From: a virus
Virus record (IMG/VR): IMGVR_UViG_3300046820_000175
Location: 1 to 31,419 of that record
DNA length: 31,419 nt
Reading direction: 5' to 3' (one strand)
A program made the position numbers and the translations under genes. The notes beneath the pieces are model-generated. The model saw nothing but the letters and a program-made list of their open reading frames with translations. It was not told where the DNA came from and ran no database searches. How positions within the stretch are numbered: the stretch's first letter is position 1; every line of letters starts with the position of its first letter. Below are positions 1 to 31,419 of the stretch, in pieces.

Positions 1-107
1 GTTTAGCGTTTCTGTAAAATTCATTTTAGTTTCCTTGTTATGCTAATGCGTGACCCCAGCGTTGTGGACGCATAGCATCTGGGTCAACGTTACGGCGCAC
101 GGGGAAT
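1..107. repeat. Left copy of 107-bp terminal direct repeat
   Basis: Positions 1-107 are identical to 31313-31419. The repeat covers the end of the terminase gene and the start of the portal gene, so it lies in coding sequence. Joining the copies restores the gene order terminase-portal with a 13-base gap. This is what a circular assembly closed by a k-mer-length overlap looks like. A true short terminal repeat at a packaging end is less likely but not excluded. Confidence 0.95.
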
Positions 108-8282: not shown

Positions 8283-8312
8283 GTGACTTGCTCCACGGGG
8301 TTATAAAGTATA

Positions 8313-8344
8313 AGTGAGCATGGGAGTCCAAGTCCATGCTCACT
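8313..8344 (-). other. Intergenic stem-loop between structural genes
   Basis: An 11-bp perfect stem (8313-8323 with 8334-8344) and a 10-base loop lie between the stop at 8352 and the start at 8282. On the minus strand the stem is followed by an A/T-rich but interrupted stretch (TTATACTTTATAA) rather than a clean T-run. It could be a weak terminator or attenuator that lowers expression of the fibre genes relative to the abundant protein upstream, or an mRNA-stabilising 3' hairpin. Confidence 0.6.
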
Positions 8345-8351
8345 GTGCCTA

Positions 8352-8744
8352 TTAGTCTAGGCTGATTGTCAAGTTACCGCTGGTTACCTGGAATGTGTCG
8401 CCACTGTCAATAGTCTTACTTGTAGTGACCGCGCCCCAGAATAACACGTTACCACTTGAACTTGCGTCCATTACGGCAATGTGAGTAATAGTTCCCCAAC
8501 TTGCACTTGCGGCTGGGAATGTAACTGTTGCGTTACTTGCACTTGCGCCACTAGAAGCGGCTGCAAATGTAATTGCTTGACGTGCATAACTACCACCTGA
8601 TACTTCTGCACTTGGGCTGTTTGATTCTAAGCCTGTGTTGGCTGTGAACAATGCCAAGTAGCGTGTGCTAGGTTGTGAGTATGCTGTTGCTGTGAGAACG
8701 TGGTCAAGAATCTTGTTCTCCAAATAGTTGCTGGCTGCCGACAT
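8352..8744 (-). CDS. Conserved phage structural protein (fibre or decoration type)
   Basis: A 130-aa protein of a type very common in environmental phages. The start is ASNYLENKILDHVL, then RYLALFT, EVSGGSYARQAITF, WGTITHIAVMDA, VLFWGAV and a final GDTFQVTSGNLTISLD. The all-beta pattern and the motifs EVSGGSYARQ and GTITH are diagnostic of this family, usually annotated as a tail fibre or virion protein. The gene follows a terminator, has the strong site AAGGAGA, and is the first gene of the fibre block, so it is probably expressed highly and late. Its exact place in the particle is unknown. Confidence 0.8.
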   Translation of the reverse strand: MSAASNYLENKILDHVLTATAYSQPSTRYLALFTANTGLESNSPSAEVSGGSYARQAITFAAASSGASASNATVTFPAASASWGTITHIAVMDASSSGNVLFWGAVTTSKTIDSGDTFQVTSGNLTISLD

Positions 8745-8773
8745 ATTTTATCTCCTTAAGGTTATGTTTGCAA

Positions 8774-8799
8774 AATGCGAATCGCACTTTTATTTAGTC
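8774..8799 (-). promoter_or_regulatory. Possible late promoter with GC palindrome
   Basis: The minus strand reads ACTAAATAAAAG (8789-8799), close to the T4-type late motif TATAAATA, followed by the palindrome TGCG-ATT-CGCA (8776-8786). It lies between terminator 8831-8871 and the structural gene starting at 8744, where a promoter is needed. No good sigma-70 -35/-10 pair is visible in this gap. This is an inference from position and a short motif. Confidence 0.35.
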
Positions 8800-8830
8800 A
8801 GAACCTAAAAAAACATTTGAAAAACAGAAA

Positions 8831-8871
8831 AAAATAAAAAAATCCCACTAGCGTTAGTAGCACTAGTGGGA
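8831..8871 (-). terminator. Rho-independent terminator
   Basis: The stem TCCCACTAG / CTAGTGGGA (8843-8851 with 8863-8871) is followed on the minus strand by seven T, one A and seven more T (down to about 8828). It ends the transcription unit of the small gene 9009-9278. Its stem shares the sequence CCCACTAG with the terminator at 16045-16080, suggesting a duplicated element. Confidence 0.9.
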
Positions 8872-9008
8872 CGGGTCTTAGGAAGTATGTCAGTAACTTT
8901 TGATTACCGCAATGTATTTATCAACCATGAAAGAAACGCCATGATAATTGCACCCGTTCATGGCAACGGTTAACTTGGAATCTAGCCAGCAATCTTGGCC
9001 ATGTCAAT
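8872..9008 (-). other. Non-coding 3' region with possible RNA structure
   Basis: There are 137 bases between the stop at 9009 and the terminator. On the minus strand it contains CCGTT-6-AACGG, a GGTAAT-CAAA-AGTTAC stem with two G-U pairs, and the motif GATAAATA at 8915-8922. The arrangement (ATAAATA motif, small hairpins, then a CCCACTAG terminator) parallels 16045-16250. It may be a small RNA expressed from its own promoter or a 3' UTR. No credible gene is seen. Confidence 0.4.
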
Positions 9009-9278
9009 CTACGCCAGTATGCCAGCCTTTACTGCATACTCAATGTAAAAGTGTGCCTTAGTTTTCTTGGCATCGTCAGTGGCATCTGCAATGGGTGCAA
9101 ATGCTTGCTTGGCTTGTTCTTTTGTTAGTGTTGCACCATTATACAATTCAAACCATGCAAACAGTGTTGCAAACGTCTTGGCTTCACGCCCACGCTTAGG
9201 CGTCTTTGCACCATGCGCACTCGTCCACTTTTGTAATCTGTTGGGTGTTGTGTCTTTTACTACTGTGTATGTTTTCAT
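9009..9278 (-). CDS. Small protein of unknown function
   Basis: An 89-aa product starting MKTYTVVKDTTPNRL. The N-terminal third is basic (RLQKW, KTPKRGREAK). The C-terminal part looks all-helical (TFATLFAWFELYNGA, LTKEQAKQAFAPIAD, KKTKAHFYIEYAVKAGIL) and could be a small winged-helix or DNA-binding fold, but no family is recognised. The ribosome site is weak (AGGGC). It is the last of five small genes in a row and is separated from the one before by a long inverted repeat. An early host-interaction or regulatory protein is a guess from size and position. Confidence 0.7.
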   Translation of the reverse strand: MKTYTVVKDTTPNRLQKWTSAHGAKTPKRGREAKTFATLFAWFELYNGATLTKEQAKQAFAPIADATDDAKKTKAHFYIEYAVKAGILA

Positions 9279-9334
9279 AGTTGCCCTATTTTAAAAGTTA
9301 GGGGTTTTTGGCCACTACCCCCGGAGTGTGTGAA

Positions 9335-9382
9335 CCAGCGTATAACGAAAGGAAAATATGACATAACAAAATTATACGCTGG
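9335..9382 (-). promoter_or_regulatory. Inverted repeat with TATAAT, leader of gene 9278
   Basis: The 11-bp perfect arms CCAGCGTATAA (9335-9345) and TTATACGCTGG (9372-9382) are separated by 26 bases. On the minus strand the first arm runs into TATAAT (-10-like), although no convincing -35 is seen 16-18 bases upstream; the second arm offers TTATAC with TTGTTA 18 bases before it. It could be a repressor-controlled promoter or an RNA hairpin in the leader. It sits about 55-105 bases before the start at 9278. Confidence 0.55.
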
Positions 9383-9394
9383 GGCCAGAATGTA

Positions 9395-9643
9395 TTAAGC
9401 CACTGTGTCGTATTCTGCCTCTAGGAAGTCAAACAATTCGTCCTCTTGCAAGTAAGAGGGTGAGGTTGACCAGGTTACTGTGAGTGTGGGAACAGTTGAG
9501 AAATATTCCCAGGTAGTGAAAATTGGTTCGTGCTGGCTGTATTTGTGAATGGCTGTGGCACGTGCTTTGTGAAACTTGCCGCGCTTGGCTGCAAACAGTT
9601 TGGCATACTTGCCAGTGAGTTGATATTTTTTGGTTACTTGCAT
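9395..9643 (-). CDS. Small protein, paralogue of the 10530-10784 product
   Basis: An 82-aa basic protein beginning MQVTKKYQLTGKYAKLFAAKRGKFHKA. Its layout matches the 84-aa product of 10530-10784: both start MQVT, both have Y.KLF/YRLF..(K/Q)R.K(F/Y) near residue 15, a central LTVTW/LVVTY strand, and a final helix with aromatic and acidic residues (LFDFLEAEYD / FFSILDQYY). They are probably diverged copies of one gene. The function is unknown. It has its own consensus promoter (9671-9699) and the site AAGGAA. Confidence 0.75.
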   Translation of the reverse strand: MQVTKKYQLTGKYAKLFAAKRGKFHKARATAIHKYSQHEPIFTTWEYFSTVPTLTVTWSTSPSYLQEDELFDFLEAEYDTVA

Positions 9644-9670
9644 TGTGATTCCTTACTGAGTTAAAAGTTA

Positions 9671-9708
9671 ATTATAGCACAATGCCCGCACTCGGTCAAG
9701 CATTGTGC
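9671..9708 (-). promoter_or_regulatory. Sigma-70 promoter with flanking operator, gene 9643
   Basis: Minus-strand TTGACC (9694-9699), a 17-base spacer and TATAAT (9671-9676). A perfect 9-bp inverted repeat, GCACAATGC (9700-9708) and GCATTGTGC (9677-9685), abuts both boxes: one arm just upstream of the -35, the other just upstream of the -10. This layout suggests a repressor site that would block RNA polymerase. Confidence 0.85.
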
Positions 9709-9712
9709 CAGG

Positions 9713-9730
9713 TGTTGTTTTTATGCAACA
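9713..9730. repeat. TGTTG-A/T-CAACA hairpin repeat, copy 1
   Basis: TGTTG (9713-9717) and CAACA (9726-9730) flank an 8-base A/T-rich loop. This copy contains the stop codon of gene 9721-10011 and lies 14 bases upstream of the -35 box for gene 9643. The run of A on the minus strand sits about where an UP element would. Other copies: 10107, 10195, 10512, 10837, 16021, and a degenerate one at 14707. Confidence 0.75.
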
Positions 9731-10011
9731 GTCTTGGATTGTTGCTTAACGTGTTTGTATTGTGCCAGCAACCAGTCATAGTGTCGCAGGCTAAAATACT
9801 GATTTAGTGTGCGTTCCAAGTGCAGTTGCACGTTGTTGTCAGTTGTTGCACTGCCCAAAAACCATTGCCAGTCTGCCATGGGTGCCACGTTTTCAGTGTC
9901 GTAGGCGTGTTTAAATTGCTTTAGCAATGCGTGTGCTGTTGCTGTGTCAAGGTCTTGACTATAGTGTTGGACAAGTTTTTTGACCAGTGTGCGATGATTA
10001 GGTTTTGACAT
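9721..10011 (-). CDS. Small helical protein of unknown function
   Basis: A 96-aa protein, MSKPNHRTLVKKLVQHYSQDL onward, predicted mostly helical and rich in His, Gln and aromatic residues (MADWQWFLGS, HYDWLLAQYKHV). No known domain is recognised. Its last codons and stop lie in the same 19-base string (ACTGTTGCATAAAAACAAC) that ends gene 10202-10417, so both proteins end -TVA. It has its own consensus sigma-70 promoter at 10069-10097 and AAGGAA before the start. Probably an early protein. Confidence 0.75.
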   Translation of the reverse strand: MSKPNHRTLVKKLVQHYSQDLDTATAHALLKQFKHAYDTENVAPMADWQWFLGSATTDNNVQLHLERTLNQYFSLRHYDWLLAQYKHVKQQSKTVA

Positions 10012-10038
10012 TGTGATTCCTTACATAGTTTAAAGTGT

Positions 10039-10097
10039 ATACACTGCATTATTGCTGTGTATGTGATTATTATACTGCAAAAGCAGGGCTGTGTCAA
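10039..10097 (-). promoter_or_regulatory. Consensus sigma-70 promoter and operator, gene 10011
   Basis: Minus-strand TTGACA (10092-10097), 17 bases, TATAAT (10069-10074): a perfect match to consensus. Just downstream, over the expected start of transcription, is an inverted repeat ATACACAGC-6-GCAGTGTAT (10039-10062) with one mismatch between arms. The same operator, with one spacer base changed, occurs at 10444-10467, so the two genes are probably co-regulated. The leader ends with TAAGGAATCA-type ribosome-site sequence shared with genes 9643 and 10417. Confidence 0.92.
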
Positions 10098-10106
10098 GCA
10101 TTATTT

Positions 10107-10124
10107 TGTTGTATTTTTGCAACA
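10107..10124. repeat. TGTTG-A/T-CAACA hairpin repeat, copy 2
   Basis: TGTTG and CAACA flank TATTTTTG (plus strand), 10 bases upstream of the -35 box at 10092-10097. On the minus strand the loop is an A-run, suited to a promoter UP element or a short hairpin. Confidence 0.75.
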
Positions 10125-10180
10125 TTTAAGCGTGGGCTCTTTTTGTATACAAAATGCTTAAACTAGCAAATTGTATACAA
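10125..10180. promoter_or_regulatory. Paired TTGTATACAA palindromes
   Basis: The perfect 10-base palindrome TTGTATACAA occurs at 10143-10152 and 10171-10180, 28 bp apart, close to the same face of the helix. The first copy is enclosed by TTTAAGC (10125-10131) and GCTTAAA (10156-10162). The stretch lies between the end of gene 10202 and the promoter of gene 10011. It looks like a binding region for a dimeric regulator. Confidence 0.6.
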
Positions 10181-10194
10181 AATAGTTACAAACC

Positions 10195-10210
10195 GTTGTT
10201 TTTATGCAAC
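10195..10210. repeat. GTTG-A/T-CAAC hairpin repeat, copy 3
   Basis: GTTG (10195-10198) and CAAC (10207-10210) flank an A/T loop. The stop codon of gene 10202-10417 lies in the loop, exactly as at 9713-9730. Nineteen minus-strand bases (ACTGTTGCATAAAAACAAC) are identical between these two copies, so a duplicated element carries the last codons of two genes. Confidence 0.7.
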
Positions 10211-10417
10211 AGTGCGTGGCAGTTCGTGGAATGTGGGCTGTTGTCGCAATTCGGACATGAGTTTTGCAATAGTTTGTTGGTGCCATTTAATTTGGCGCTT
10301 GCATTTAGCAATTTCCTTGCTGTTGCCCTTAGTTTGTTGCAGTTGTTCAATGCGTTGCATTTGTTCTGCGATTGCCATTTGGTTGTTGGCGATGAGTTGA
10401 CCGTAGTGTTTTGACAT
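10202..10417 (-). CDS. Small coiled-coil protein of unknown function
   Basis: A 71-aa product rich in Gln and Lys (MSKHYGQLIANNQMAIAEQ, then RIEQLQQTKGN and KWHQQTIAKLMSELRQQ), strongly helical and likely a two-helix coiled coil. The C-terminus PRTVA comes from the repeated stop-codon element. It has its own perfect sigma-70 promoter at 10474-10502 and AAGGAA upstream of the ATG. No homologue is recognised. Confidence 0.75.
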   Translation of the reverse strand: MSKHYGQLIANNQMAIAEQMQRIEQLQQTKGNSKEIAKCKRQIKWHQQTIAKLMSELRQQPTFHELPRTVA

Positions 10418-10443
10418 TTTGATTCCTTACATAGTTAGTTAAA

Positions 10444-10502
10444 ATACACTGCACTATTGCTGTGTATGTAAGAATTATACACAAAAACAGTGGAGTTGTC
10501 AA
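10444..10502 (-). promoter_or_regulatory. Consensus sigma-70 promoter and operator, gene 10417
   Basis: Minus-strand TTGACA (10497-10502), 17 bases, TATAAT (10474-10479). Downstream is the operator ATACACAGC-6-GCAGTGTAT (10444-10467), with arms identical to those at 10039-10062. About 60 bases of leader are related between the two loci, from the -10 box to GGAATCA before the start, which indicates a duplicated promoter cassette. Confidence 0.92.
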
Positions 10503-10511
10503 CTGTTTTTT

Positions 10512-10529
10512 TGTTGTTTTTTTGCAACA
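10512..10529. repeat. TGTTG-A/T-CAACA hairpin repeat, copy 4
   Basis: TGTTG (10512-10516) and CAACA (10525-10529) flank a T7/A7 loop. It begins 10 bases upstream of the -35 box of gene 10417, and its upstream edge touches the stop codon of gene 10530-10784. Confidence 0.75.
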
Positions 10530-10784
10530 TTATTTCAATGTGTCTGCTCGGGTATAATACTGGTCTAAAATGCTAAAAAATGCACGTTCCGTAGCCTCAG
10601 TATACGCATCCTGAAAGTAAGTAACCACTAACTTTGTGGTGTTGCGTTTATACGACACGGACTTGACAATGTTAAAGTTTTGCTGTATGTCTGCCAATGC
10701 TTGTTGCAGTGCAACACGATATTTTTGTCGTTGACTGCTAAAAAGTCTGTAAATGTTGTTGCTGATTTCATAGGTTACTTGCAT
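10530..10784 (-). CDS. Small protein, paralogue of the 9395-9643 product
   Basis: An 84-aa product beginning MQVTYEISNNIYRLFSSQR. It shares the order of features with the 82-aa product of 9395-9643: MQVT start, YRLF...RQKY helix, LVVTY strand and an aromatic-acidic final helix (FFSILDQYY). The function is unknown. Its promoter (10806-10834) lies inside the 3' end of the glycosyltransferase-like gene upstream, so it can be transcribed independently of the large operon. The ribosome site is GGAG. Confidence 0.75.
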   Translation of the reverse strand: MQVTYEISNNIYRLFSSQRQKYRVALQQALADIQQNFNIVKSVSYKRNTTKLVVTYFQDAYTEATERAFFSILDQYYTRADTLK

Positions 10785-10805
10785 AAAGACTCCGTTAAAA
10801 ATGAC

Positions 10806-10834
10806 ATTTTAGCACAATTATTACTCATTGTCAA
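10806..10834 (-). promoter_or_regulatory. Sigma-70 promoter of gene 10784
   Basis: Minus-strand TTGACA (10829-10834), 17 bases, TAAAAT (10806-10811). The -35 box is inside the last codons (VDNE) of the gene ending at 10821. No inverted repeat overlaps this promoter, unlike the next two downstream. Confidence 0.88.
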
Positions 10835-11678
10835 CCTGTTGTTTTTTTACAACAACACTACTGGGATTAGGGTTATTCTTATACACTGACCTAAACATAA
10901 TGTTGCCTGCTTTGTTTGTTGACAATTTGTATTTGTTTATAAGACATTCACGGCTTTTTGTTCTGGTATCTCCACCATGACCCTTTGCACCCTGTGTCCA
11001 TGTGCTGACAGTGTGACCAAACTCACGCAATACTATGTTTTGACACTGATATACGCCAAAGTCATTTTGCATTAGTTGTAGGCCAAAATCAATATCTGCA
11101 CCACCAATCATTTTACCAGTGCTGTCTGTGAAAGTTGTTTGGTCAAAGTAAATTGGCTTGTTATAAAACTTTCTCAGATTCTTTAACACAAAGAAACTGC
11201 CCTTAAATGCTGTGCTACGTTTGAAAACAAGATTGTCTTGGAATGTCTGGGTGTTTTCTGCATACAGTTTGTTAAAGGGCATGTTGGCAGGGTTGATGGG
11301 TATAAACGCATCTACATTGCCCAGTAGTTCTGGATCAATGTTGTTGAATACTTCTACAAAGTTTTTACTGTCACAGTGTTGCTGACCTTCGTGCAATACG
11401 CTGTCATCATCTGCAAAAATAGCCCAGTCTTCGTCACTGGCATAAAATTTTTCTAGTAAGCAGTCACGTGCATGTCCAGGTAGTTTTATTTCTTTGTCAT
11501 TGACAATGTATTCAACACCAGATTTAAAATCTTCTTTGTTGTAGTGCTGTGCGTAGACAACTGGTTTTAAGTTATTTTGAAATACCCATGCTAGTTGTTT
11601 AGTGTGATAATCTCTGCGGCGTTGTGCTACGTCATCATTGCCAAACCAACTGATAATGTATATGCTTTTTAGTTTCAT
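10821..11678 (-). CDS. Glycosyltransferase-like protein (GT-A type)
   Basis: A 285-aa protein. It opens with a beta strand and a charged helix (KSIYIISWFG, RRRDYHTKQLAWVFQ) as in GT-A nucleotide-sugar binding folds. Residues 66-93 read LPGHARDCLLEKF...WAIFADDDSV: the strand-DDD motif (D90-D92) after a helix with conserved R and E is the metal and sugar-nucleotide site of GT-A enzymes. Later motifs are GGADIDFGLQL (about 195), a likely acceptor or base region, and FGHTVSTWTQG. The general order resembles phage DNA-base glycosyltransferases of the TET-associated type, but this is from memory. It is the last gene of the operon with the DpdA-like and dehydrogenase-like genes, 7 bases after the latter. 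The sugar and acceptor are unknown; modified DNA is the favoured acceptor, a host glycan the alternative. The C-terminus (VVVKKQQ) is encoded by a hairpin repeat. Confidence 0.65.
   Translation of the reverse strand: MKLKSIYIISWFGNDDVAQRRRDYHTKQLAWVFQNNLKPVVYAQHYNKEDFKSGVEYIVNDKEIKLPGHARDCLLEKFYASDEDWAIFADDDSVLHEGQQHCDSKNFVEVFNNIDPELLGNVDAFIPINPANMPFNKLYAENTQTFQDNLVFKRSTAFKGSFFVLKNLRKFYNKPIYFDQTTFTDSTGKMIGGADIDFGLQLMQNDFGVYQCQNIVLREFGHTVSTWTQGAKGHGGDTRTKSRECLINKYKLSTNKAGNIMFRSVYKNNPNPSSVVVKKQQVDNE
10837..10854. repeat. TGTTG-A/T-CAACA hairpin repeat, copy 5
   Basis: TGTTG (10837-10841) and CAACA (10850-10854) flank an A7 loop, 3 bases upstream of the -35 box of gene 10784. This copy is translated as part of the glycosyltransferase-like C-terminus, so the element is tolerated in coding sequence. 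Confidence 0.75.
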
Positions 11679-11685
11679 TGTCTAT

Positions 11686-12468
11686 TTACCTTCGCAGTTC
11701 ATGGTTCTTTGTAATTGCGGCTGTTAACACTTTTGGTGTCATGCCCATGTCTTGTGCATACTTTAACAATGCACTGGTGTCTTTGGGGAAACAAGCACCA
11801 CCGAATCCAAATTTGCCATCAGGACCTGGCACTTGCATATGACTAGTGCCAATGCGTGTGTCTAGTTTTACAATCTCTGCAATTTTGTCATAGTCCATGC
11901 CAGATAACTTTGTTAGTTCATGTATTTCATTCATAAACAAAACTTTAGTAGCCAAGAAACTGTTTATTGTGTATTTTACCAATGATGCTTCGTCAATGTT
12001 GCAGTGAGCAACCTTTGTCAAATTAGGCTGTGTTAGTCTGATTACTGTTTCTGCTTGCTTGATGTATTCACTGTTGTTACCACCAATCACTGCAAATTTG
12101 CCATTGACATAGTCCTCGTTGGCATTTGCGGCTGTTAAAAACTCAGGCGCATGGACTAAGTTTGGGCACTTGCTGTTTAACTCTTTGTATACACTGGGAG
12201 TTGCAGTGCATTTGCTGATGATGACGCCTTGATAGTTCACTTCTTTTAAATTATCAATGATTTGTTCTAAAATACTTGTGTTGCATCGGCCATCACTGAG
12301 TTGTGCTGTGGGCACACAAACAAACACTGAATCTGTCATGTCTGCAAGTTCTTTGTATGTGCTGTTGTAGCCCTTGCTTTCGTCAATTATTACCCATACA
12401 TCATCTTTGATTGAAGATTTAATGGCATTGCCTACAAATCCCAATCCTATAATTCCAATCTTTTTCAT
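11686..12468 (-). CDS. UDP-glucose/GDP-mannose dehydrogenase-like protein, lacking the C-terminal domain
   Basis: A 260-aa protein. The N-terminal Rossmann fold has GLGFVG (residues 8-13). Family motifs follow in order: VFVCVPTAQL, ISKCTATPS, HAPEFL, the central-domain helix ASLVKYTINSFLATKVLFMNEI, and the catalytic cysteine motif FGFGGACFPKDTSALL (C about 226). Normal family members run 390-450 aa; this one stops just after KNHELRR, where the UDP-binding C-terminal domain would begin. The NAD-binding domain and catalytic Cys and Lys are kept, so it may still oxidise a sugar or another alcohol, with the substrate handled by a partner. Its start overlaps the stop of the DpdA-like gene by 4 bases (ATGA). 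A plausible role is making a uronic-type donor for the adjacent transferase. Confidence 0.85.
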   Translation of the reverse strand: MKKIGIIGLGFVGNAIKSSIKDDVWVIIDESKGYNSTYKELADMTDSVFVCVPTAQLSDGRCNTSILEQIIDNLKEVNYQGVIISKCTATPSVYKELNSKCPNLVHAPEFLTAANANEDYVNGKFAVIGGNNSEYIKQAETVIRLTQPNLTKVAHCNIDEASLVKYTINSFLATKVLFMNEIHELTKLSGMDYDKIAEIVKLDTRIGTSHMQVPGPDGKFGFGGACFPKDTSALLKYAQDMGMTPKVLTAAITKNHELRR

Positions 12469-13772
12469 ACTACCTCAAATAAATTGTTAAATGTGTCCAG
12501 GCTTGTTGCCCTGTGATTGCTGAAACGTTCTAGTCTGCGACTGTGTGTCGCTAGTGCTTTCAGTGCCTGTGTTTCTGTAGGTGCTTCTAGGATTTCTTCT
12601 AATACTGTTTCTACATCCACGTCCCATGCAAGTTCTTGTGGTCTTTGTCCCTGTTGAAATGCTAGTTCTGCTTGTTGTTGGCTTTGTAGCATTATGTCCA
12701 GGTTGTGATGTTGTAGAAATATATAACTTATGGCATCAAGTCCTGATTTATTATTGGCCTGTATAATGTCATGCAAGGTCAATCGTTTAAAGATTTCACT
12801 GGCAGTAATGTCAGGTCTGTTTGACAACACTGGCTCAGTGCTTGCCTTGTGCTGTTGCGTCCAGGGTATGGGTTCTATGTCAAGCACCCATTTGCCGTTA
12901 CTGTTAAAAGTCCATCCTGTGATTAGTTGACCCTTAGCAGCCTGTATGTAAGGACCACTGCTGTCATAGGTGATTTTAATATCGGGGAAGTGACGGGCAA
13001 TGGCATTAAAGAACACTGTCTGATAGAGTTTGCTTTTACCCAAAATGTGTATGCGTTCTGTGTGCTGTAAGTAACCACGGTGTTTGAGTATCACTAAACG
13101 GCGTAACATGGCTTCGGCACTGTAACTCTGCAAGTTACCAAACGCCCAGCCCCTGCAATAATCATTTCTATAGCCCGGAGTGTTGTAGTCTTTGACCTGG
13201 TCAAAGTAGTCATCTGTTTCTGCAAATGTTCTGCCCTGTAGTGCGTTGAGCCACTTGGTCTTGCCTGTTGACGTTGACATATAGTAGTCCATGTTGTCAA
13301 CAATCACACGCATGGCTTGTTCATGTGTGGTAATGCCTGTGATTGCCATTGCTTTGGGAACATCAAAAATCATATAAGGTATGTCAAGTGTCACTGCCCA
13401 GTCACTGTTGTTTTCTTGCCATGCCTGGACTGTTTTGCGTAAGTCCAGAAACTTTTGATCCATGGGATTTAGTCGGACTTTCCATGTGCCCTTACAGATT
13501 TGAAAGCCACCACTGTCACTGATAATTGTAGTGCCAGGGTAACGGTTTCTTAGGCTGTATTCGTTTAGTGGCTTTTTGCCTGTTAAGTCCGCATGACCAC
13601 TACTGGCTAGTCCTATATCATAGTGCAAGATACTGTTGGGGTTTAAAAACTCCAGGTCTTGCATACTGTTGATTGTTTGAGGTAATCTCTGTGCTATACG
13701 AGAGTGCTCATGTGGATGCCACATGGGCATCTCACAGAAAAAACTCCTAGCAGGTGTATACACTGCTGTCAT
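12465..13772 (-). CDS. DpdA/TGT-like base-exchange enzyme (predicted deazaguanine DNA transglycosylase)
   Basis: A 435-aa protein with the TIM-barrel motifs of the tRNA-guanine transglycosylase superfamily. SDSGGFQ at 85-91 (D86) matches the base-recognition Asp loop. VTLDIPY (D130), NALQGR (176-181) and RGWAFGNLQS (207 onward) match the central loops. ILGKSK (243 onward) is followed by ITYDSSGPY with D270, the expected nucleophile position. The C-terminal zinc site (CxCxxC...H) of tRNA enzymes is absent: only three scattered cysteines exist. This is what the DNA-acting DpdA branch looks like. DpdA enzymes swap guanine in DNA for a 7-deazaguanine such as preQ0. No preQ0 synthesis genes (folE, queD, queE, queC) are here, so the base would come from the host. 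It is the middle gene of a five-gene operon. A tRNA substrate is the main alternative. Confidence 0.8.
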   Translation of the reverse strand: MTAVYTPARSFFCEMPMWHPHEHSRIAQRLPQTINSMQDLEFLNPNSILHYDIGLASSGHADLTGKKPLNEYSLRNRYPGTTIISDSGGFQICKGTWKVRLNPMDQKFLDLRKTVQAWQENNSDWAVTLDIPYMIFDVPKAMAITGITTHEQAMRVIVDNMDYYMSTSTGKTKWLNALQGRTFAETDDYFDQVKDYNTPGYRNDYCRGWAFGNLQSYSAEAMLRRLVILKHRGYLQHTERIHILGKSKLYQTVFFNAIARHFPDIKITYDSSGPYIQAAKGQLITGWTFNSNGKWVLDIEPIPWTQQHKASTEPVLSNRPDITASEIFKRLTLHDIIQANNKSGLDAISYIFLQHHNLDIMLQSQQQAELAFQQGQRPQELAWDVDVETVLEEILEAPTETQALKALATHSRRLERFSNHRATSLDTFNNLFEVV

Positions 13773-14074
13773 CTATACTCCACACCAAATTTGTTAGCAA
13801 GTTGTTGTATGCGTTGACCAAGTATGACAATGTGCTGTAAACGGCTTTCGTAGCAGTCATACAAGTCACTGTCTGCTTCACGCTGTTGTATTAACTGCAT
13901 TTCTTTGCCGTAGTCATACAATTCTTGCCACAGAGTTTTAAAAGTGTGTATGTCCACAACTTCTGTTACATCATGGGCCTTGGCAAACCATTCTTCAACA
14001 GTGTTGGCTTGTATAGTTGCAAGTTCACGTAAAACTGCATCACTTAATTCAATATAGCGTTCTGTGTTAATCAC
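13769..14074 (-). CDS. Small helical protein in the modification operon
   Basis: A 101-aa product beginning INTERYIELSDAVLRELATI. I chose the GTG at 14072-14074: it has GGGAG seven bases upstream and follows the stop of the preceding gene by one base. A longer frame starting at 14128 would overlap that gene and has no ribosome site. The protein is nearly all helical (NTVEEWFAKAHDVTEV, FKTLWQELYDYGKEMQ, RLQHIVILGQRIQQL). No family is recognised. Its stop overlaps the ATG of the DpdA-like gene (ATGA), so it is probably co-translated with it and could be a partner subunit. Confidence 0.75.
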   Translation of the reverse strand: MINTERYIELSDAVLRELATIQANTVEEWFAKAHDVTEVVDIHTFKTLWQELYDYGKEMQLIQQREADSDLYDCYESRLQHIVILGQRIQQLANKFGVEYR

Positions 14075-14075
14075 G

Positions 14076-14552
14076 TTATTCTCCCTCTTTTTCCATTTTA
14101 CGCAATTCACGGACTGATTCTTTGACAAACTTTGGCACTGCTTTGCTGGTTTGTGTTTTTGTAATTGAGTTCACGCACCACAACAGTTGTTTTAGAGTAA
14201 CATTGGGGTTGTGATAGTTAGTCAATGTATGTTCAATGCCATTGCCGTTGGCACTACCCTCCCAGTAAGCATCCCAAATGTCAAGGTGTTCTTGTGTCCA
14301 CTTGTCATGGTCTTGTGCAATAGTTCTGCCTTTGTTTACTAAATCAACAATGGCATCTGCTTGGTCACGACTTAGTTTAGCACGTGCCCTGCCATTAATA
14401 ATCTCGCACTCTACTGTGTCTGCTTGTCTTACACGTATTTTATTTAGGATTTCAGCCGCTGGACTTACTTTTTTTTGTGGCTGTGTTGTTTGTGTTTGCC
14501 CGTCAAATTCAAAAAGTTGATTGAATAAGGGCATGGCGGTGTTTGATTTCAT
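14076..14552 (-). CDS. Unknown protein, first gene of the modification operon
   Basis: A 158-aa product starting MKSNTAMPLFNQLFEFDGQ. Residues 1-30 are polar and probably disordered. Then comes a helix rich in Lys and Arg (AAEILNKIRVRQAD), a short strand (VECEIINGRARAKL), and helices with several Trp residues (HDKWTQEHLDIWDAYWEG). The basic C-terminus (VRELRKMEKEG) could contact nucleic acid. No known fold is recognised. AAAGGAG precedes the start and the promoter at 14603-14630 lies upstream. As first gene of the operon it may be regulatory or an accessory factor for base modification. Confidence 0.7.
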   Translation of the reverse strand: MKSNTAMPLFNQLFEFDGQTQTTQPQKKVSPAAEILNKIRVRQADTVECEIINGRARAKLSRDQADAIVDLVNKGRTIAQDHDKWTQEHLDIWDAYWEGSANGNGIEHTLTNYHNPNVTLKQLLWCVNSITKTQTSKAVPKFVKESVRELRKMEKEGE

Positions 14553-14580
14553 AGTGTTCTCCTTTAGTTCATAAAATCAA

Positions 14581-14630
14581 CAAGCACCTTGCTTGTATTA
14601 CAATAATAACATACTAAAACAGTATGTCAA
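14581..14630 (-). promoter_or_regulatory. Promoter with internal operator for the DpdA operon
   Basis: Minus-strand TTGACA (14625-14630), 16 bases, TATTAT (14603-14608). A perfect inverted repeat ACATACT-GTTTT-AGTATGT (14609-14627) fills the spacer and overlaps the -35 box, a classic repressor position. A leader hairpin CAAGC-5-GCTTG (14581-14595) follows. The promoter would drive five genes (14552 to 10821). It is the only clear promoter found for that operon. Confidence 0.8.
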
Positions 14631-14647
14631 GTGTTTTTTCTATTTTT

Positions 14648-14699
14648 CTATATACATTTTTGTTATATAGAACTGGTATTTTATAATGTGAAATTATAA
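14648..14699. promoter_or_regulatory. A/T-rich inverted repeats upstream of the operon promoter
   Basis: CTATATA (14648-14654) pairs with TATATAG (14664-14670). Next to it, TTATAA-7-TTATAA (14681-14699) includes ATAATGTGAAA, similar to the operators at 15949-16013. The stretch lies between gene 14720-15004 and the promoter at 14603-14630. A degenerate copy of the TGTTG hairpin repeat starts at 14707. It may bind a regulator or end the upstream transcript. Confidence 0.45.
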
Positions 14700-14719
14700 G
14701 TCTGTGTGTTGTTTTTTTA

Positions 14720-15004
14720 CTACGTTTGAGTATTCAATGCAATCCAAGTTAACCATTTGGGATCTGCGTGGTATGCCCAGACAGTTATTTTATGGAACTT
14801 TGGCAAGGGATTTGGCTCATCCGTTAATAAGAACCCTCCCTTGTTTTCTAAAAATTTATTGACTGTATTTTCATCAATGACCCTTAGCAGTAATTCTTCT
14901 ACTGACATAAATTCATACAGGTATTCATCACTAAATTCTGTGTGAAATATTTGTTGACGGATACCATGTTCAATAATACCCCAATGATGGTGTTGTGTTA
15001 GCAT
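14720..15004 (-). CDS. Small protein of unknown function
   Basis: A 94-aa acidic protein, MLTQHHHWGIIEHGIRQ onward, with FSDEYLYEFMSVEELLLRV and ENTVNKFLENKGGFLLTDE, and a C-terminus rich in Trp (TVWAYHADPKWLTWIALN). The helix-then-strand pattern suggests a small alpha/beta fold. No family is recognised. Its ATG follows immediately after the stop of the 80-aa gene upstream (TAAATG), so they are co-translated. Confidence 0.7.
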   Translation of the reverse strand: MLTQHHHWGIIEHGIRQQIFHTEFSDEYLYEFMSVEELLLRVIDENTVNKFLENKGGFLLTDEPNPLPKFHKITVWAYHADPKWLTWIALNTQT

Positions 15005-15247
15005 TTATTTTAACCAAGTTTCTCTGCGTTGTAGTTCTCTGGCCAAATACTCATTAACAGGAACATTCAAATTCAATATACTCCATTTCAAGTAATCAGT
15101 GGGTAAGTCCTTAATGAACCAGTTTGTGTATTTACCAAATGTCATTCTTCTGTGTTTGTATTCATTACTACCCAATCTGTTATTCCAAGTAATTGCTTGA
15201 ATATTACTGGGTATCTTTGATTTTATTTTTCGTTTTGTTTTTGCCAT
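15005..15247 (-). CDS. DUF3820-like small protein
   Basis: An 80-aa product. After a very basic start (MAKTKRKIKSKIPSNIQ), residues 35-75 carry MTFGKYTNWFIKDLPTDYLKW and YLARELQRR. This is the FGKY...(I)..(L/I)P.DYL.W pattern of the DUF3820 family of small proteins, which occur in phages and are sometimes found with nucleic acid enzymes. Its function is unknown. AGGAG precedes the start and a promoter lies at 15269-15297. It is the first gene after the large non-coding region. Confidence 0.7.
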   Translation of the reverse strand: MAKTKRKIKSKIPSNIQAITWNNRLGSNEYKHRRMTFGKYTNWFIKDLPTDYLKWSILNLNVPVNEYLARELQRRETWLK

Positions 15248-15268
15248 ATATCTATCTCCTGTTTTATT

Positions 15269-15297
15269 AGTATACTGTTGTCAATTAAGAAAGTCAA
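15269..15297 (-). promoter_or_regulatory. Sigma-70 promoter of gene 15247
   Basis: Minus-strand TTGACT (15292-15297), 17 bases, TATACT (15269-15274). The -35 box is part of the 8-bp hairpin AAGTCAAC-3-GTTGACTT (15291-15309), so promoter and possible terminator of the upstream RNA share bases. The leader is about 15 bases before AGGAG and the ATG at 15247. Confidence 0.8.
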
Positions 15298-15419
15298 CTG
15301 CGTTGACTTGTTCAATATAAAATCATTGCTCGTTTGCACTCGCATGATTTTATATTTCACTGCGCTTCGCTGACTGAAATACAAAACATCTAAGTCATTA
15401 ACAAATATCAAGGACTTAG
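15291..15419 (-). other. Cluster of four stem-loops at the end of the large RNA
   Basis: Four inverted repeats follow each other: 15390-15396/15413-15419 (CTAAGTC), 15353-15359/15375-15381 (TATTTCA, with an inner GCG-AAG-CGC), 15315-15326/15344-15355 (a perfect 12-bp arm ATATAAAATCAT) and 15291-15298/15302-15309 (8 bp, followed on the minus strand by TCTTAATT). The last one could terminate the upstream RNA, though its T-run is poor. No gene is supported here. Confidence 0.65.
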
Positions 15420-15900
15420 TTATTGTGTAGATTCAGAGCCAATAAGACACCCCTAAGAAGGAATGTCTTAAAGAGTCATTGTGTGAGTTCTTCACCTTTT
15501 CAGACAGTAGGGCTTTTAGTGCGACTGCTTTGGGCTCTTTTCCTTACCCAGCCTACAAAGATTTTTAAACCGCACTTTCAGGTGTCAACGTGCAGTATAA
15601 GCAGTTTTAAATTCGCTAAACCATTCCGACTGTAGAAATCTTACTGTCATCCATTCAGGTGTCACAGTGATTTAAGGCATCCCAACATCATTGGGGTAGT
15701 CTACAGAAGCCCGTCTACAGCGAACAGAATTGGCTACCGTCACACATCAGAACGGATTCACCAGCGGTATAGTTATGCGGCCCGCTAACCTTGTGCTGTA
15801 AGATTTGCCTAAAATGGGAAATTGTAAAGATATGTGCCTAAAGTGCCTGTCAGACTTATTTATACGCAACAGAAAATAACTGTATTTTTTCTGCTGTGTC
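15420..15900 (-). ncRNA. Large structured non-coding RNA candidate
   Basis: About 480-600 bases with no credible ORF, downstream of a strong promoter (15906-15933). On the minus strand many helices form: 15887-15896/15867-15876 (10 bp, at the 5' end), 15782-15786/15763-15767, 15734-15738/15695-15699, 15690-15695/15681-15686, 15664-15668/15643-15647, 15590-15596/15569-15575 and 15459-15469/15444-15454 (11 bp with UCUU loop). In five of these, pairs that are G-U on the minus strand would be C-A mismatches on the plus strand, which points to a minus-strand RNA. The decamer GACACCTGAA occurs in the loops of two successive hairpins (15654-15663 and 15577-15586). A long-range helix (15837-15847 with 15572-15582) may compete with one of them. 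Size and setting recall the GOLLD and ROOL classes of phage RNAs, but I cannot assign a class. It is not a tmRNA or RNase P RNA that I recognise. Confidence 0.7.
15857..15864 (-). promoter_or_regulatory. TATAAATA motif within the RNA locus
   Basis: An exact TATAAATA on the minus strand, the consensus of T4-type late promoters, about 35-40 bases downstream of the expected sigma-70 start. If used, the RNA would be made from two starts, early and late. Based on motif alone. Confidence 0.3.
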
Positions 15901-15905
15901 TTACT

Positions 15906-15933
15906 AGTATATAGCATTTGTGAAACTTGTCAA
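15906..15933 (-). promoter_or_regulatory. Sigma-70 promoter of the large RNA
   Basis: Minus-strand TTGACA (15928-15933), 16 bases, TATACT (15906-15911). The start is expected near 15898-15900, placing the 10-bp hairpin 15867-15896 at the very 5' end of the transcript. Two palindromic operators lie upstream. Confidence 0.85.
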
Positions 15934-15948
15934 GTATTTTTTTCATTT

Positions 15949-16013
15949 TTTCATATTATGAAATTGTTTCTGTAACAGATTGATTTGTAATACTTTTGTT
16001 TCATAATGTGAAA
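15949..16013. promoter_or_regulatory. Twin palindromes upstream of the RNA promoter
   Basis: TTTCATATTATGAAA (15949-15963) and TTTCATAATGTGAAA (15999-16013) are 15-base palindromes sharing TTTCATA and TGAAA arms, 50 bp apart (about five helical turns). A related sequence lies near 14681-14699. They begin 16 bp upstream of the -35 box, a position suited to an activator or a looping repressor. Confidence 0.6.
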
Positions 16014-16020
16014 TGCTATT

Positions 16021-16038
16021 TGTTGTTTTTTTACAACA
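16021..16038. repeat. TGTTG-A/T-CAACA hairpin repeat, copy 6
   Basis: TGTTG (16021-16025) and CAACA (16034-16038) flank a T7/A7 loop. It lies just downstream of the terminator (minus direction) and upstream of the twin palindromes. It is farther from a promoter than the copies at 9.7-10.9 kb. Confidence 0.7.
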
Positions 16039-16044
16039 CAAAGA

Positions 16045-16080
16045 AAAACCCCACTAGACTATGACAACTAGTGGGGTTTT
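16045..16080 (-). terminator. Rho-independent terminator
   Basis: A 13-bp perfect stem AAAACCCCACTAG / CTAGTGGGGTTTT (16045-16057 with 16068-16080), with T-runs on both strands, so it may work in both directions. It ends the unit coming from the tail genes through the structured region 16082-16245. The inner stem CCCACTAG is shared with the terminator at 8831-8871. Confidence 0.93.
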
Positions 16081-16081
16081 G

Positions 16082-16237
16082 AGTTACCATTGCAGTAACT
16101 TAACTTTTGTTGCTTACAGGTAGAAAGTTGACAGACTTGGCACATTAGCAACAAAAGTGCAGTAAGTGACTACGGGGAACCGTCTATGGCAAAAACGGAA
16201 GTCAAATTAGTAATAAAGTGACCAAATCACTCACTGC
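16082..16237 (-). ncRNA. Second structured RNA candidate, or structured 3' UTR
   Basis: About 160 bases between the stop at 16246 and the terminator, without a credible ORF. Three nested or adjacent helices: 16227-16237/16159-16169 (11 bp with one G-U on the minus strand, C-A on the plus), 16147-16156/16105-16114 (perfect 10 bp, TTTTGTTGCT) and 16082-16087/16095-16100 (6 bp). Inside the first helix, CCGT-12-ACGG and AGTGA-5-TCACT can also form. The motif GATAAATA immediately upstream could be its own late promoter. A small regulatory RNA or a 3' UTR released from the tail operon both fit. Confidence 0.55.
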
Positions 16238-16242
16238 AATTT

Positions 16243-16250
16243 TATTTATC
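16243..16250 (-). promoter_or_regulatory. GATAAATA motif before the second RNA
   Basis: Minus-strand GATAAATA overlaps the stop codon of gene 16246-16899 and is followed by AAATTGCAGTGAG, where the 11-bp helix of the RNA begins. It matches seven of eight bases of the T4 late consensus. Motif evidence only. Confidence 0.3.
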
Positions 16251-16899
16251 TTCGTTTTAATCTGCGTTCAATTTTTTCTGTGCTTTTTAGTTCACGTATA
16301 ACGCTTTCACCACTTTCTCTAATTAACCAGTAATTTACTTTTACACTGACATCCTCATATTCTGGTTCTGGCTTAGGTGGTTTTGGCTGTTTGGCAATCT
16401 TTTGCTTGATTATCTCTCTGGGTGTTTGAAACTTGCTGGCATAGACACCCTTCTTTTCTCTATAATAACTAGCAAAAAATCCATGACTTTGCTGTGGTGT
16501 AACATCAAACTTTCCTGACATGGGATTTTTATAAAGCCCACAGGTCACGCATTTATGACGCCAGTGCTTTTTGCCAGTGATACACTGCTTGTGTTCTGTG
16601 TGACGGCCATTTGGGCAATGCACTCCACAATCTTCACAGTCAACGGGTTGATTCTTTACTTGCTTGATAACTGGCTGCACACTATCATTAGGCTGTGTTT
16701 CTCGCCAAGCAACTAATTCATCATAGTAATCCTGCACTTCCTCATCGGTCATGTCATTGAGTTCCTCTTCGGTAATCTGTGGAGGAGGAATACGTGCTTT
16801 AGCGTTCTTGTTTACTGAATAACAGCCATTGGGACCCAGCATGGGTCTGTGCCAGTCACTGACTTCTGTTAACTTGCGTAAAAATTCTTCATTGTCCAT
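16246..16899 (-). CDS. Zinc-ribbon protein at the end of the tail operon
   Basis: A product of about 217 aa starting MDNEEFLRKL. The ATG at 16899 is preferred to a GTG five codons earlier, since TAAGAG lies before the ATG and nothing purine-rich before the GTG. The N-terminal half is acidic (EEELNDMTDEEVQDYYDEL). The middle has a clear metal site: CEDCGVHCPNGRHTEHKQC, then HKCVTCGLYKNP about 15 residues on. The C-terminus is strongly basic and Pro-rich (KQKIAKQPKPPKPEPEYED) and ends RRLKRR. This is a zinc-ribbon protein likely to bind nucleic acid or to act as a scaffold. It follows the tail tip genes, but no structural family is recognised. Confidence 0.75.
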   Translation of the reverse strand: MDNEEFLRKLTEVSDWHRPMLGPNGCYSVNKNAKARIPPPQITEEELNDMTDEEVQDYYDELVAWRETQPNDSVQPVIKQVKNQPVDCEDCGVHCPNGRHTEHKQCITGKKHWRHKCVTCGLYKNPMSGKFDVTPQQSHGFFASYYREKKGVYASKFQTPREIIKQKIAKQPKPPKPEPEYEDVSVKVNYWLIRESGESVIRELKSTEKIERRLKRR

Positions 16900-29843: not shown

Positions 29844-31336
29844 TCTTTTTCAACCCAGCCCTGTTGCATTAGTTGACGTTTTGTTTCAAAGTCAATAATC
29901 CATCCTTCTTCGCCAGTGATTGGGTTGTAGTAAAGTTCTGGTTCTTCAAATGGTTCTACTGAATCATAAGGCACAGTTTCACCATTGGCTAGTGTCACCA
30001 TCTCTGGTAAAATAATGTCACCGTTCTCTCCTAGCCATTCTACAATTTCATGGTCAATGAGTTCTAACACACGTGGGTCAGTGGCAGTGTCTTTGGCAAT
30101 CTTTAATTGTTCAATTTCTTTACTTGTATCACGGATATTGAATGAGCCTGGGTAGTCAATCTCACCACTCCATGTTGTGCCCATGTATTCTGCCCAGAGT
30201 TTCCACATTTGTTCTTCTGCTAGTTCTAGGTTATCTGCTTTTTCGCTTAGACGGGCATTCAAAAGTTGAAATTCAGTTTCCATTGCTACCCCAGACATAC
30301 TGCGACTTTCTACTGCACGAACAGCACCAGTGTTGGCCATCTTGTCAATGGCTTCTACTGTGTGTTTGATACTTGCGTAGATAGAATCAATGCTTGCGCC
30401 ACTGTATTCTAACAAATAAGGCTTAAGACCTGGGTCAAGATTTTCTGGCATTCTGATTAATGCACCACTGCCTGTGCCCACTTGTGTTTCTGGTGTAGCA
30501 ACAAGACTTGGGTGAGAATCCATACGGATTGCTTGGTCAACTTCTGACGTTGCGTTGTATATAAATCGTTGAGCGTCCGCAATGTCCGCAATGTCTGAAA
30601 TGCCAATGCCACGCACACTACTACGACCGTTATAGCAAACAACAGCAGGAATCTTGCCTAAGCCATTGACTTCTATAACGTCATTGTCAATCTTGTTGTC
30701 TTTGATGTTGACTTGTGTTGTTCTGATTGTTTCTTTAGTCCACTCTTTGACAACTCTAATGTCACCATTAACATCTTCAAGGTATTTGAAATAAACAAGG
30801 TCATATCTGCCACTGGGTTGACGTGCCCACTTCCAGTCTAACACTACCATAGGTGTCAGCAAGTTTACATATGGTCTAATGCCCATGGCTTGTTCATCTG
30901 CACGTGTGTTAGCACCAATGTTTGGCTTTGCAACAATAATCCAGCAACTACCGAACACTGAACTCCATGTTGCCACGTCTTTCATAAATGCGTTTAGACT
31001 TCTGCCATCCATGTCCGCATCATCAAGGAAATCTCCTAGTTCAGGCATCATATCAAGGCCATTAAATTCACGCTCTGGTTCCTCACGGAAGAGAAAGGAG
31101 TTATACACACTTATGACACTGGCACAGTGATTTTCTAGGGGAGTGTTCTTTAGTCTGGCAGCGTATTCGCCATCAGTTTCTAACACATATCTGGTCAAGT
31201 GTTTGGCTTGACGGTATTCGTCACCCCCAACATATGATTCCAGCAAATATTTCCAAATTGGCAAGTAAGTCTGCACCGTTTCATTGGCACTTAACACTGC
31301 CTGTATTTCTGAGTTTAGCGTTTCTGTAAAATTCAT
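29840..31336 (-). CDS. Portal protein
   Basis: A 498-aa protein of the dodecameric portal type. The N-terminal part has YVGGDEYRQAKHLTRYV and RLKNTPLENHCASVISVYNSFLF (wing and stem). GIGISDIADIADAQRFIYNATSEVDQAI near 245-272 is a typical crown/clip segment, followed by an acidic region (SRSMSGVAMETEFQLLNARLSEKA, EEQMWKLWAEYMG). Length and position after the large terminase (across the circular junction) agree. The start has AAGGAA seven bases upstream. The type is close to portals of siphoviruses with separate scaffold genes. Confidence 0.9.
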   Translation of the reverse strand: MNFTETLNSEIQAVLSANETVQTYLPIWKYLLESYVGGDEYRQAKHLTRYVLETDGEYAARLKNTPLENHCASVISVYNSFLFREEPEREFNGLDMMPELGDFLDDADMDGRSLNAFMKDVATWSSVFGSCWIIVAKPNIGANTRADEQAMGIRPYVNLLTPMVVLDWKWARQPSGRYDLVYFKYLEDVNGDIRVVKEWTKETIRTTQVNIKDNKIDNDVIEVNGLGKIPAVVCYNGRSSVRGIGISDIADIADAQRFIYNATSEVDQAIRMDSHPSLVATPETQVGTGSGALIRMPENLDPGLKPYLLEYSGASIDSIYASIKHTVEAIDKMANTGAVRAVESRSMSGVAMETEFQLLNARLSEKADNLELAEEQMWKLWAEYMGTTWSGEIDYPGSFNIRDTSKEIEQLKIAKDTATDPRVLELIDHEIVEWLGENGDIILPEMVTLANGETVPYDSVEPFEEPELYYNPITGEEGWIIDFETKRQLMQQGWVEKE

Positions 31337-31419
31337 TTTAGTTTCCTTGTTATGCTAATGCGTGACCCCAGCGTTGTGGACGCATAGCATCTGGGTCAAC
31401 GTTACGGCGCACGGGGAAT
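31313..31419. repeat. Right copy of 107-bp terminal direct repeat
   Basis: Identical to 1-107. It contains the portal start codon and ribosome site and the last 23 codons of the large terminase gene, so one copy is redundant when the genome is closed into a circle of 31,312 bp. Confidence 0.95.

Follow-up and report, generated by a model that had tools for sequence, protein, structure and literature searches.

What could a phage make with an operon in which a predicted DNA guanine transglycosylase, a sugar dehydrogenase and a glycosyltransferase are encoded side by side? The question is raised by five genes on the minus strand, from 14552 to 10821, of the virus record IMGVR_UViG_3300046820_000175, whose whole stretch of 31,419 nucleotides was analysed and is called the window here. 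On balance, the operon probably makes a glycosylated, perhaps uronosylated, 7-deazaguanine in phage DNA; this reading rests on the anatomy and linkage of the genes and on the folds and conserved catalytic residues of their products, from which the chemistry is inferred. 7-Deazaguanine DNA and glycosylated phage DNA are each known, and their combination is the new part. Comparative genomics strongly backs the suggested connection of sugar and deazaguanine, the uronic-acid part of the proposal being weaker than the sugar part. The original prediction had described five tightly packed genes behind one promoter, and the open reading frames (ORFs), the junctions (4-base overlaps or gaps of 1-7 bases) and the promoter-like site were all found as it described them:

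14603..14630, minus strand: promoter-like site upstream of gene 1, TTGACA-16-TATTAT with TG before the second hexamer (11/12 consensus matches; a consensus match only)
14076..14552, minus strand: gene 1, 158 aa, no convincing family (best weak match phrog_4239, E 0.003)
13769..14074, minus strand: gene 2, 101 aa from GTG 14074 (119 aa if TTG 14128), no family; from the ORF list and reading of the DNA
12465..13772, minus strand: gene 3, 435 aa, DpdA-like predicted DNA guanine transglycosylase (TGT fold; D86, D130, G208, H242, D270; without zinc cysteines)
11686..12468, minus strand: gene 4, 260 aa, short UDP-glucose-dehydrogenase-like protein without the C-terminal nucleoside diphosphate (NDP)-binding domain (E109, K165, N169, C226, K229 and D230 conserved)
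10821..11678, minus strand: gene 5, 285 aa, GT-A-fold glycosyltransferase (model fold, D90-x-D92)

In the pathway that we propose, gene 3 would replace guanine in phage DNA by a 7-deazaguanine from the host, either preQ0, preQ1 or a near derivative of these, as its fold and catalytic residues suggest. The base is taken to be host-made because the genome, complete as set out below, encodes no synthesis pathway; hidden Markov models (HMMs) for QueC, QueD, QueE and FolE matched nothing in any frame of the window genome, in agreement with the earlier statement that preQ0 synthesis genes are absent. Judged by the conservation of its active site, gene 4 would oxidize a sugar; in the simplest case it would act on C6 of an NDP-hexose and so provide an NDP-uronic-acid donor. 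Gene 5, judged by its fold, DxD motif and gene linkage, would then attach this sugar to the inserted base at its 7-substituent, and guanine sites in the modified DNA would be shielded from host restriction enzymes and nucleases. Genes 1 and 2 may be partners; no relatives of gene 1 were present in the first 201 loci collected.

The product of gene 3 matched no sequence family in Pfam, PHROG, NCBIfam or PDB, and PDB sequence searches with DpdA and glycosyltransferase profiles yielded nothing useful. Its assignment as a DpdA-like enzyme, with a predicted activity, nevertheless holds by its fold, its residues and the preQ0-gene neighbourhoods of its relatives. For the AlphaFold model (predicted local distance difference test, pLDDT, 82), the top seven Foldseek matches were all TGT (best E 3.4e-7), and the comparison with 2ash gave a Z score of 20.5, with 303 residues at 4.5 A. 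The SDSGGFQ motif (D86) and D270, by which TGT/DpdA motifs had been recognized in the original prediction, are present and invariant among the relatives, and all five residues listed above are invariant across 22 of them. Whereas D86, D130 and D270 align with both 9g DpdA and E. coli Tgt, H242 aligns with His196 (HGFG) of 9g DpdA, a position held by Tyr in E. coli Tgt. The tRNA-type zinc site CxCxxC is absent, as had been claimed, with H356 as the sole zinc ligand retained; among the relatives, only those of L010 and L011 (collected loci are given by L numbers) keep the zinc cysteines. A tree placed gene 3 and Tgt_Ecoli on different sides of a node with support 84/81, but its deep branches are very long and it is a poor guide at that depth. 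Relatives were found by tblastn in PA5oct-type jumbo phages, Sinorhizobium phage Phosso and Vibrio phage 2.275.O; the last of these adjoins QueF, a preQ0-transporter-like gene, QueC and FolE, and that of PA5oct lies near QueE. A DpdA-like gene 27% identical to that of the window was also seen in an island of a Polynucleobacter chromosome (L296:1353-11233), where its neighbours, read by eye, are an integrase and a cytosine methylase, possibly marking a bacterial modification or defence island.

Gene 5 matched no family in Pfam, PHROG or NCBIfam above cut-off. Its model (pLDDT 89) has a GT-A fold, matched by Foldseek to GalNAc-T2, K4CP and others with Z of about 14, and viral models annotated as TET-associated glycosyltransferases (TAGT) rank high by fold. 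The DDD motif that had been read in this gene is present at D90-D92, with D90 and D92 invariant in 17 sequences; the later ED motif reads AD in the window copy. Single-sequence scans of viral contigs with DpdA, glycosyltransferase or UDP-glucose dehydrogenase (UGDH) matched nothing, and alignments were needed. A glycosyltransferase alignment scan that was blind to DpdA returned 30 GT-A loci. The nearest relative overall, in L053 (42% identity), comes after QueE in a cluster that also includes DpdA, QueD and FolE. In L172/L173 the GT-A gene, 37% identical to gene 5 in L172, overlaps QueC downstream of a DpdA2-like gene, and in L177, L179, L181-L184, L186, L191 and L192 it occurs with QueE, FolE, a DpdA2-type gene and usually QueD within about 8-14 kb. 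By family HMM and a 22-row alignment, DpdA was found in 11/30 GT-A loci, in 6 of the large GT-A records and in Phosso. An earlier count of 0/30, obtained with a four-row alignment, was rejected because that alignment lacked sensitivity. In L177, L182, L184 and L186, DpdA2 clusters have FolE and QueE (and QueD in the fetched loci), and QueC was not found in the record; the product may stop at 7-carboxy-7-deazaguanine, a replacement gene may exist, or QueC may lie beyond the fragment.

A second type of glycosyltransferase is also linked to DpdA. The commonest DpdA neighbour in T4-like loci (62/80) is a GT-B-type gene, an assignment that is good but not strong, as Pfam Glycos_transf_1 matches 8/11 members with a best E of 2.7e-4. 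The gene directly abuts DpdA in PA5oct and overlaps it in ACP17. It was present in 20 of 50,697 phage records, which represent about six unrelated phage groups and include the cultured phages PA5oct, Paride and ACP17, and all 20 also encode DpdA. Among 47 whole viral records picked by UGDH, it was found in 15/15 with a convincing DpdA and elsewhere in two short fragments only. As a negative control, Schizotequatroviruses, in whose DNA plain dPreQ0 or dPreQ1 has been measured (PMC6884629, PMC12028318), are absent from the list of phage records carrying GT-B. Phosso encodes DpdA, GT-B and GT-A. The natural reading of these associations is that glycosyltransferases of either fold would act on the base inserted by DpdA. 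Two further observations concern the same neighbourhoods. A small conserved gene, phrog_17812 (L053:12207-12650 and homologues), lies near DpdA in 68/80 loci and occurs in ACP17 and, just after GT-B, in PA5oct. In L014, L038, L053, L069, L085 and L021, DegT/DnrJ-like aminotransferase and cytidylyltransferase-like genes were noticed by eye near T4-like DpdA clusters; they hint at amino-sugar or other activated donors.

Gene 4 had been described as a nucleotide-sugar dehydrogenase lacking its C-terminal domain, and this description was confirmed: the protein matches the Pfam domains UDPG_MGDP_dh_N (PF03721, 1.9e-10) and the central domain (PF00984, 2.8e-23), and the C-terminal UDP-binding domain PF03720 is absent from it and from the rest of the window genome. 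The six residues listed above are invariant in short relatives, and the active site is intact. Short UGDHs of ~250-320 aa form a phage family, and gene 4 is not a lone decayed copy. In a viral scan for its relatives made without reference to DpdA, DpdA, FolE, QueE or GT-B was found within the fetched stretch of 17/21 loci with the closest relatives (47-67% identity), in contrast to 9/59 loci of more distant UGDHs (Fisher p 1e-7). The recurring gene order in the close loci is DpdA, a small conserved gene, GT-B, UGDH, FolE and QueE; FolE follows UGDH by 10-72 bases in 11 of them, and in L211, L216 and L222 the UGDH and GT-B genes share 4 bases. Gene 4 is 67% identical to the UGDH of L206, a record of 206 kb in which DpdA and GT-B are also present. 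In the UGDH tree, which needs about six context changes overall, gene 4 nests in a clade of 20 rows, 17 of which have deazaguanine/GT-B context. The sugar link to deazaguanine put forward in the original prediction is thus supported from two sides, as UGDH and glycosyltransferase searches blind to DpdA reach 7-deazaguanine clusters and GT-B is confined to phages encoding DpdA.

Ten loci (L211, L225, L226, L248, L249, L256, L260, L265, L268 and L270) link DpdA with a short UGDH and a glycosyltransferase, which is of the GT-B type in all of them. Relatives anchored by the large terminase (TerL) were a poor background control, being mostly short, small-genome phages, and we therefore relied on within-family contrasts (close versus distant UGDH; GT-B versus DpdA presence). 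The nearest relative by TerL, L092 (97%), is a 21.8-kb fragment without the operon region.

Several points weigh against a glycosylated deazaguanine. The expected linkage of the three genes in relatives was borne out for the three kinds of enzyme in the ten loci above, but the exact trio of DpdA, UGDH and GT-A was found in the window only. Many of the loci belong to related T4-like phages, and common descent inflates the counts and overstates their independence. Many short UGDHs sit in records without DpdA. The sister phages DSL-LC06 and L197, the latter with TerL and portal 62% identical to those of the window phage, carry distant GT-A genes (24% identity) and no DpdA in about 29 kb, and DpdA is also missing from the GT-A records L287 (38% identity, 36 kb) and L174 (72 kb). 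The presence of distant GT-A genes in DpdA-free sister phages is the main doubt, as it shows that the GT-A family serves more than deazaguanine; the family is enriched in deazaguanine phages, not restricted to them. In L197 the distant gene (L197:9992-10936) separates the genes for the small and the large terminase subunit. On the chemical side, the nitrile of preQ0 cannot accept a sugar directly, and an aminomethyl/amine, amide or carboxylate form would therefore be needed and is the more likely acceptor. Finally, gene 4 lacks the nucleotide-binding domain of classical UGDH, which holds UDP in the known enzymes, and the uronic acid is for this reason the weakest step of the proposal.

Some of these points would also fit the insertion of a plain 7-deazaguanine by gene 3, with the UGDH and glycosyltransferase serving an unrelated function, for example a change of host surface glycans that prevents superinfection or the decoration of virion proteins, as accessory genes pooled in a variable region. 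The variable region of DSL-LC06 indeed holds glycosyltransferase, heptosyltransferase, sialyltransferase-like and KpsC-like genes and no DpdA, the terminase-flanked GT-A gene of L197 occurs without DpdA, and many polysaccharide and protein glycosyltransferases are among the structural neighbours of gene 5. We nevertheless regard this explanation as unlikely, since gene 5 shares more identity with the glycosyltransferases of deazaguanine clusters (42% in L053, 37% in L172) than with those of related phages (24%), the relatives of the UGDH occur independently in FolE/GT-B/DpdA clusters, and GT-B is confined to DpdA phages, so that three coincidences would be required.

The missing domain of gene 4 can be read in a different way, namely that the short UGDH acts on DNA and not on a nucleotide sugar, oxidizing the alcohol of a base-borne sugar or a 7-substituent hydroxyl to a carboxylate in place. 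The loss of the C-terminal domain with all six active-site residues kept points to an unchanged reaction whose substrate has no nucleotide moiety to be held by, and the short UGDH of Campylobacter phage CP220 lies near QueE. However, no earlier case of a UGDH-fold enzyme working on DNA was found, and several short UGDHs adjoin NDP-sugar epimerase genes (L048, L238-L240), which favour a nucleotide-sugar substrate; an action on DNA appears quite improbable. It is similarly a long shot that a glycosylated acidic 7-deazaguanine is common and overlooked in phages, with the short UGDH as a dedicated tailoring enzyme that would oxidize the sugar once on DNA; aquatic T4-like phages, PA5oct- and Paride-type jumbo phages, ACP17 and the minimal 31-kb phage would then, just as speculatively, share this modification.

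That the 435-aa protein modifies tRNA and raises a queuosine-type modification during infection, leaving DNA unmodified, is suggested by the TGT fold and by a family first named for tRNA enzymes, but is very unlikely given the absent zinc cysteines, the DpdA-type His in place of the Tyr of Tgt, the gp43-like DNA polymerase genes that adjoin relatives in 78/80 loci and the DNA modification measured in DpdA2 phages (PMC6884629, PMC12028318). This tRNA-enzyme reading was rejected on the residues and not on the tree, which is poorly resolved at depth.

To our knowledge, glycosylated 7-deazaguanine DNA has not been reported, and no such report was found in the literature searched, the coverage of which is incomplete and does not prove absence. 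In the 7-deazaguanine DNA products known so far, the substituents are cyano, aminomethyl, amido, formamidino or carboxyl groups and not sugars. The operon resembles the DpdA/DpdA2 systems of phages 9g, CAjan and nt-1 (Hutinet et al. 2019, PMC6884629) in its predicted TGT-fold base exchange, its catalytic residues and the use of phage- or host-supplied 7-deazaguanine; it differs in that gene 3 belongs to a different sequence group, the genome is without synthesis genes, and the predicted enzyme is coupled to sugar oxidation and transfer. In the clusters of PA5oct, Phosso and T4-like phages, as in the window, a glycosyltransferase and often a short UGDH are linked to a DpdA from the group of gene 3, but these clusters use GT-B (both types in Phosso) and mostly have preQ0-pathway genes, whereas the window has GT-A and none of these genes. 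The nearest precedent is Bacillus phage SP-15, a DNA base of which carries glucose and phosphoglucuronate and which encodes a UDP-glucose dehydrogenase and glycosyltransferases (PMC5977210). As proposed for the window, a phage UGDH and glycosyltransferases are tied there to a sugar-bearing DNA base, but this base is a modified uracil and not a deazaguanine, and the SP-15 UGDH is a full-length enzyme of 437 aa. TET-associated and T4 DNA glycosyltransferases likewise transfer a sugar onto a modified phage DNA base, and TAGT models match the gene 5 fold, but their acceptors are hydroxymethylated pyrimidines and gene 5 shows no detectable similarity to them in sequence.

If the operon does make a glycosylated 7-deazaguanine, phage DNA would contain a new chemical class, a purine base bearing a sugar, and functions would be assigned to families that are now hypothetical (this DpdA group, the short UGDH, and the GT-A and GT-B genes). 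The prediction is directly testable in the cultured phages PA5oct, Paride and ACP17, whose records carry the pair of DpdA and GT-B. It bears on phage escape from restriction and CRISPR nucleases, and would offer enzymes for DNA labelling.

The host supply of the base depends on the completeness of the genome, which is indicated by an exact direct repeat of 107 bases at both ends of the stretch:

1..107, no strand: left copy of the direct terminal repeat, an exact match to the right copy
31313..31419, no strand: right copy of the direct terminal repeat, an exact match to the left copy

Because of this repeat, and because the TerL and portal genes meet across the window ends as in the related complete genome DSL-LC06, the window is considered to be a complete, circularly assembled phage genome of ~31.3 kb. 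Its gene set, with TerL, the portal, scaffold and major head proteins, tape measure and tail genes, resembles that of siphoviruses, and no DNA polymerase, primase or helicase family was recognized among the larger ORFs searched. No relative of the operon at the DNA level was found in annotated phages. Within the operon, the junction of genes 1 and 2 reads TAA-C-GTG, the GTG lying one base past the gene 1 stop, and the start of gene 2 is therefore most likely GTG 14074; the 119-aa version from TTG in the ORF list would share 53 bases with gene 1. Overlaps of 4 bases follow at the junctions 2/3 and 3/4, and a gap of 7 bases at 4/5. Around the operon, in window 8200-16400, 41 promoter-like sites were counted, about twice the 20.8 (standard deviation 5.1) in shuffled sequence; two of them are perfect TTGACA-17-TATAAT sites, as if every small accessory gene had its own promoter. 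Amid the tail genes, window 2375-5854 encodes a 1159-aa protein with a Laminin_G_3 (concanavalin-like) domain, which is probably a host-binding tail protein.

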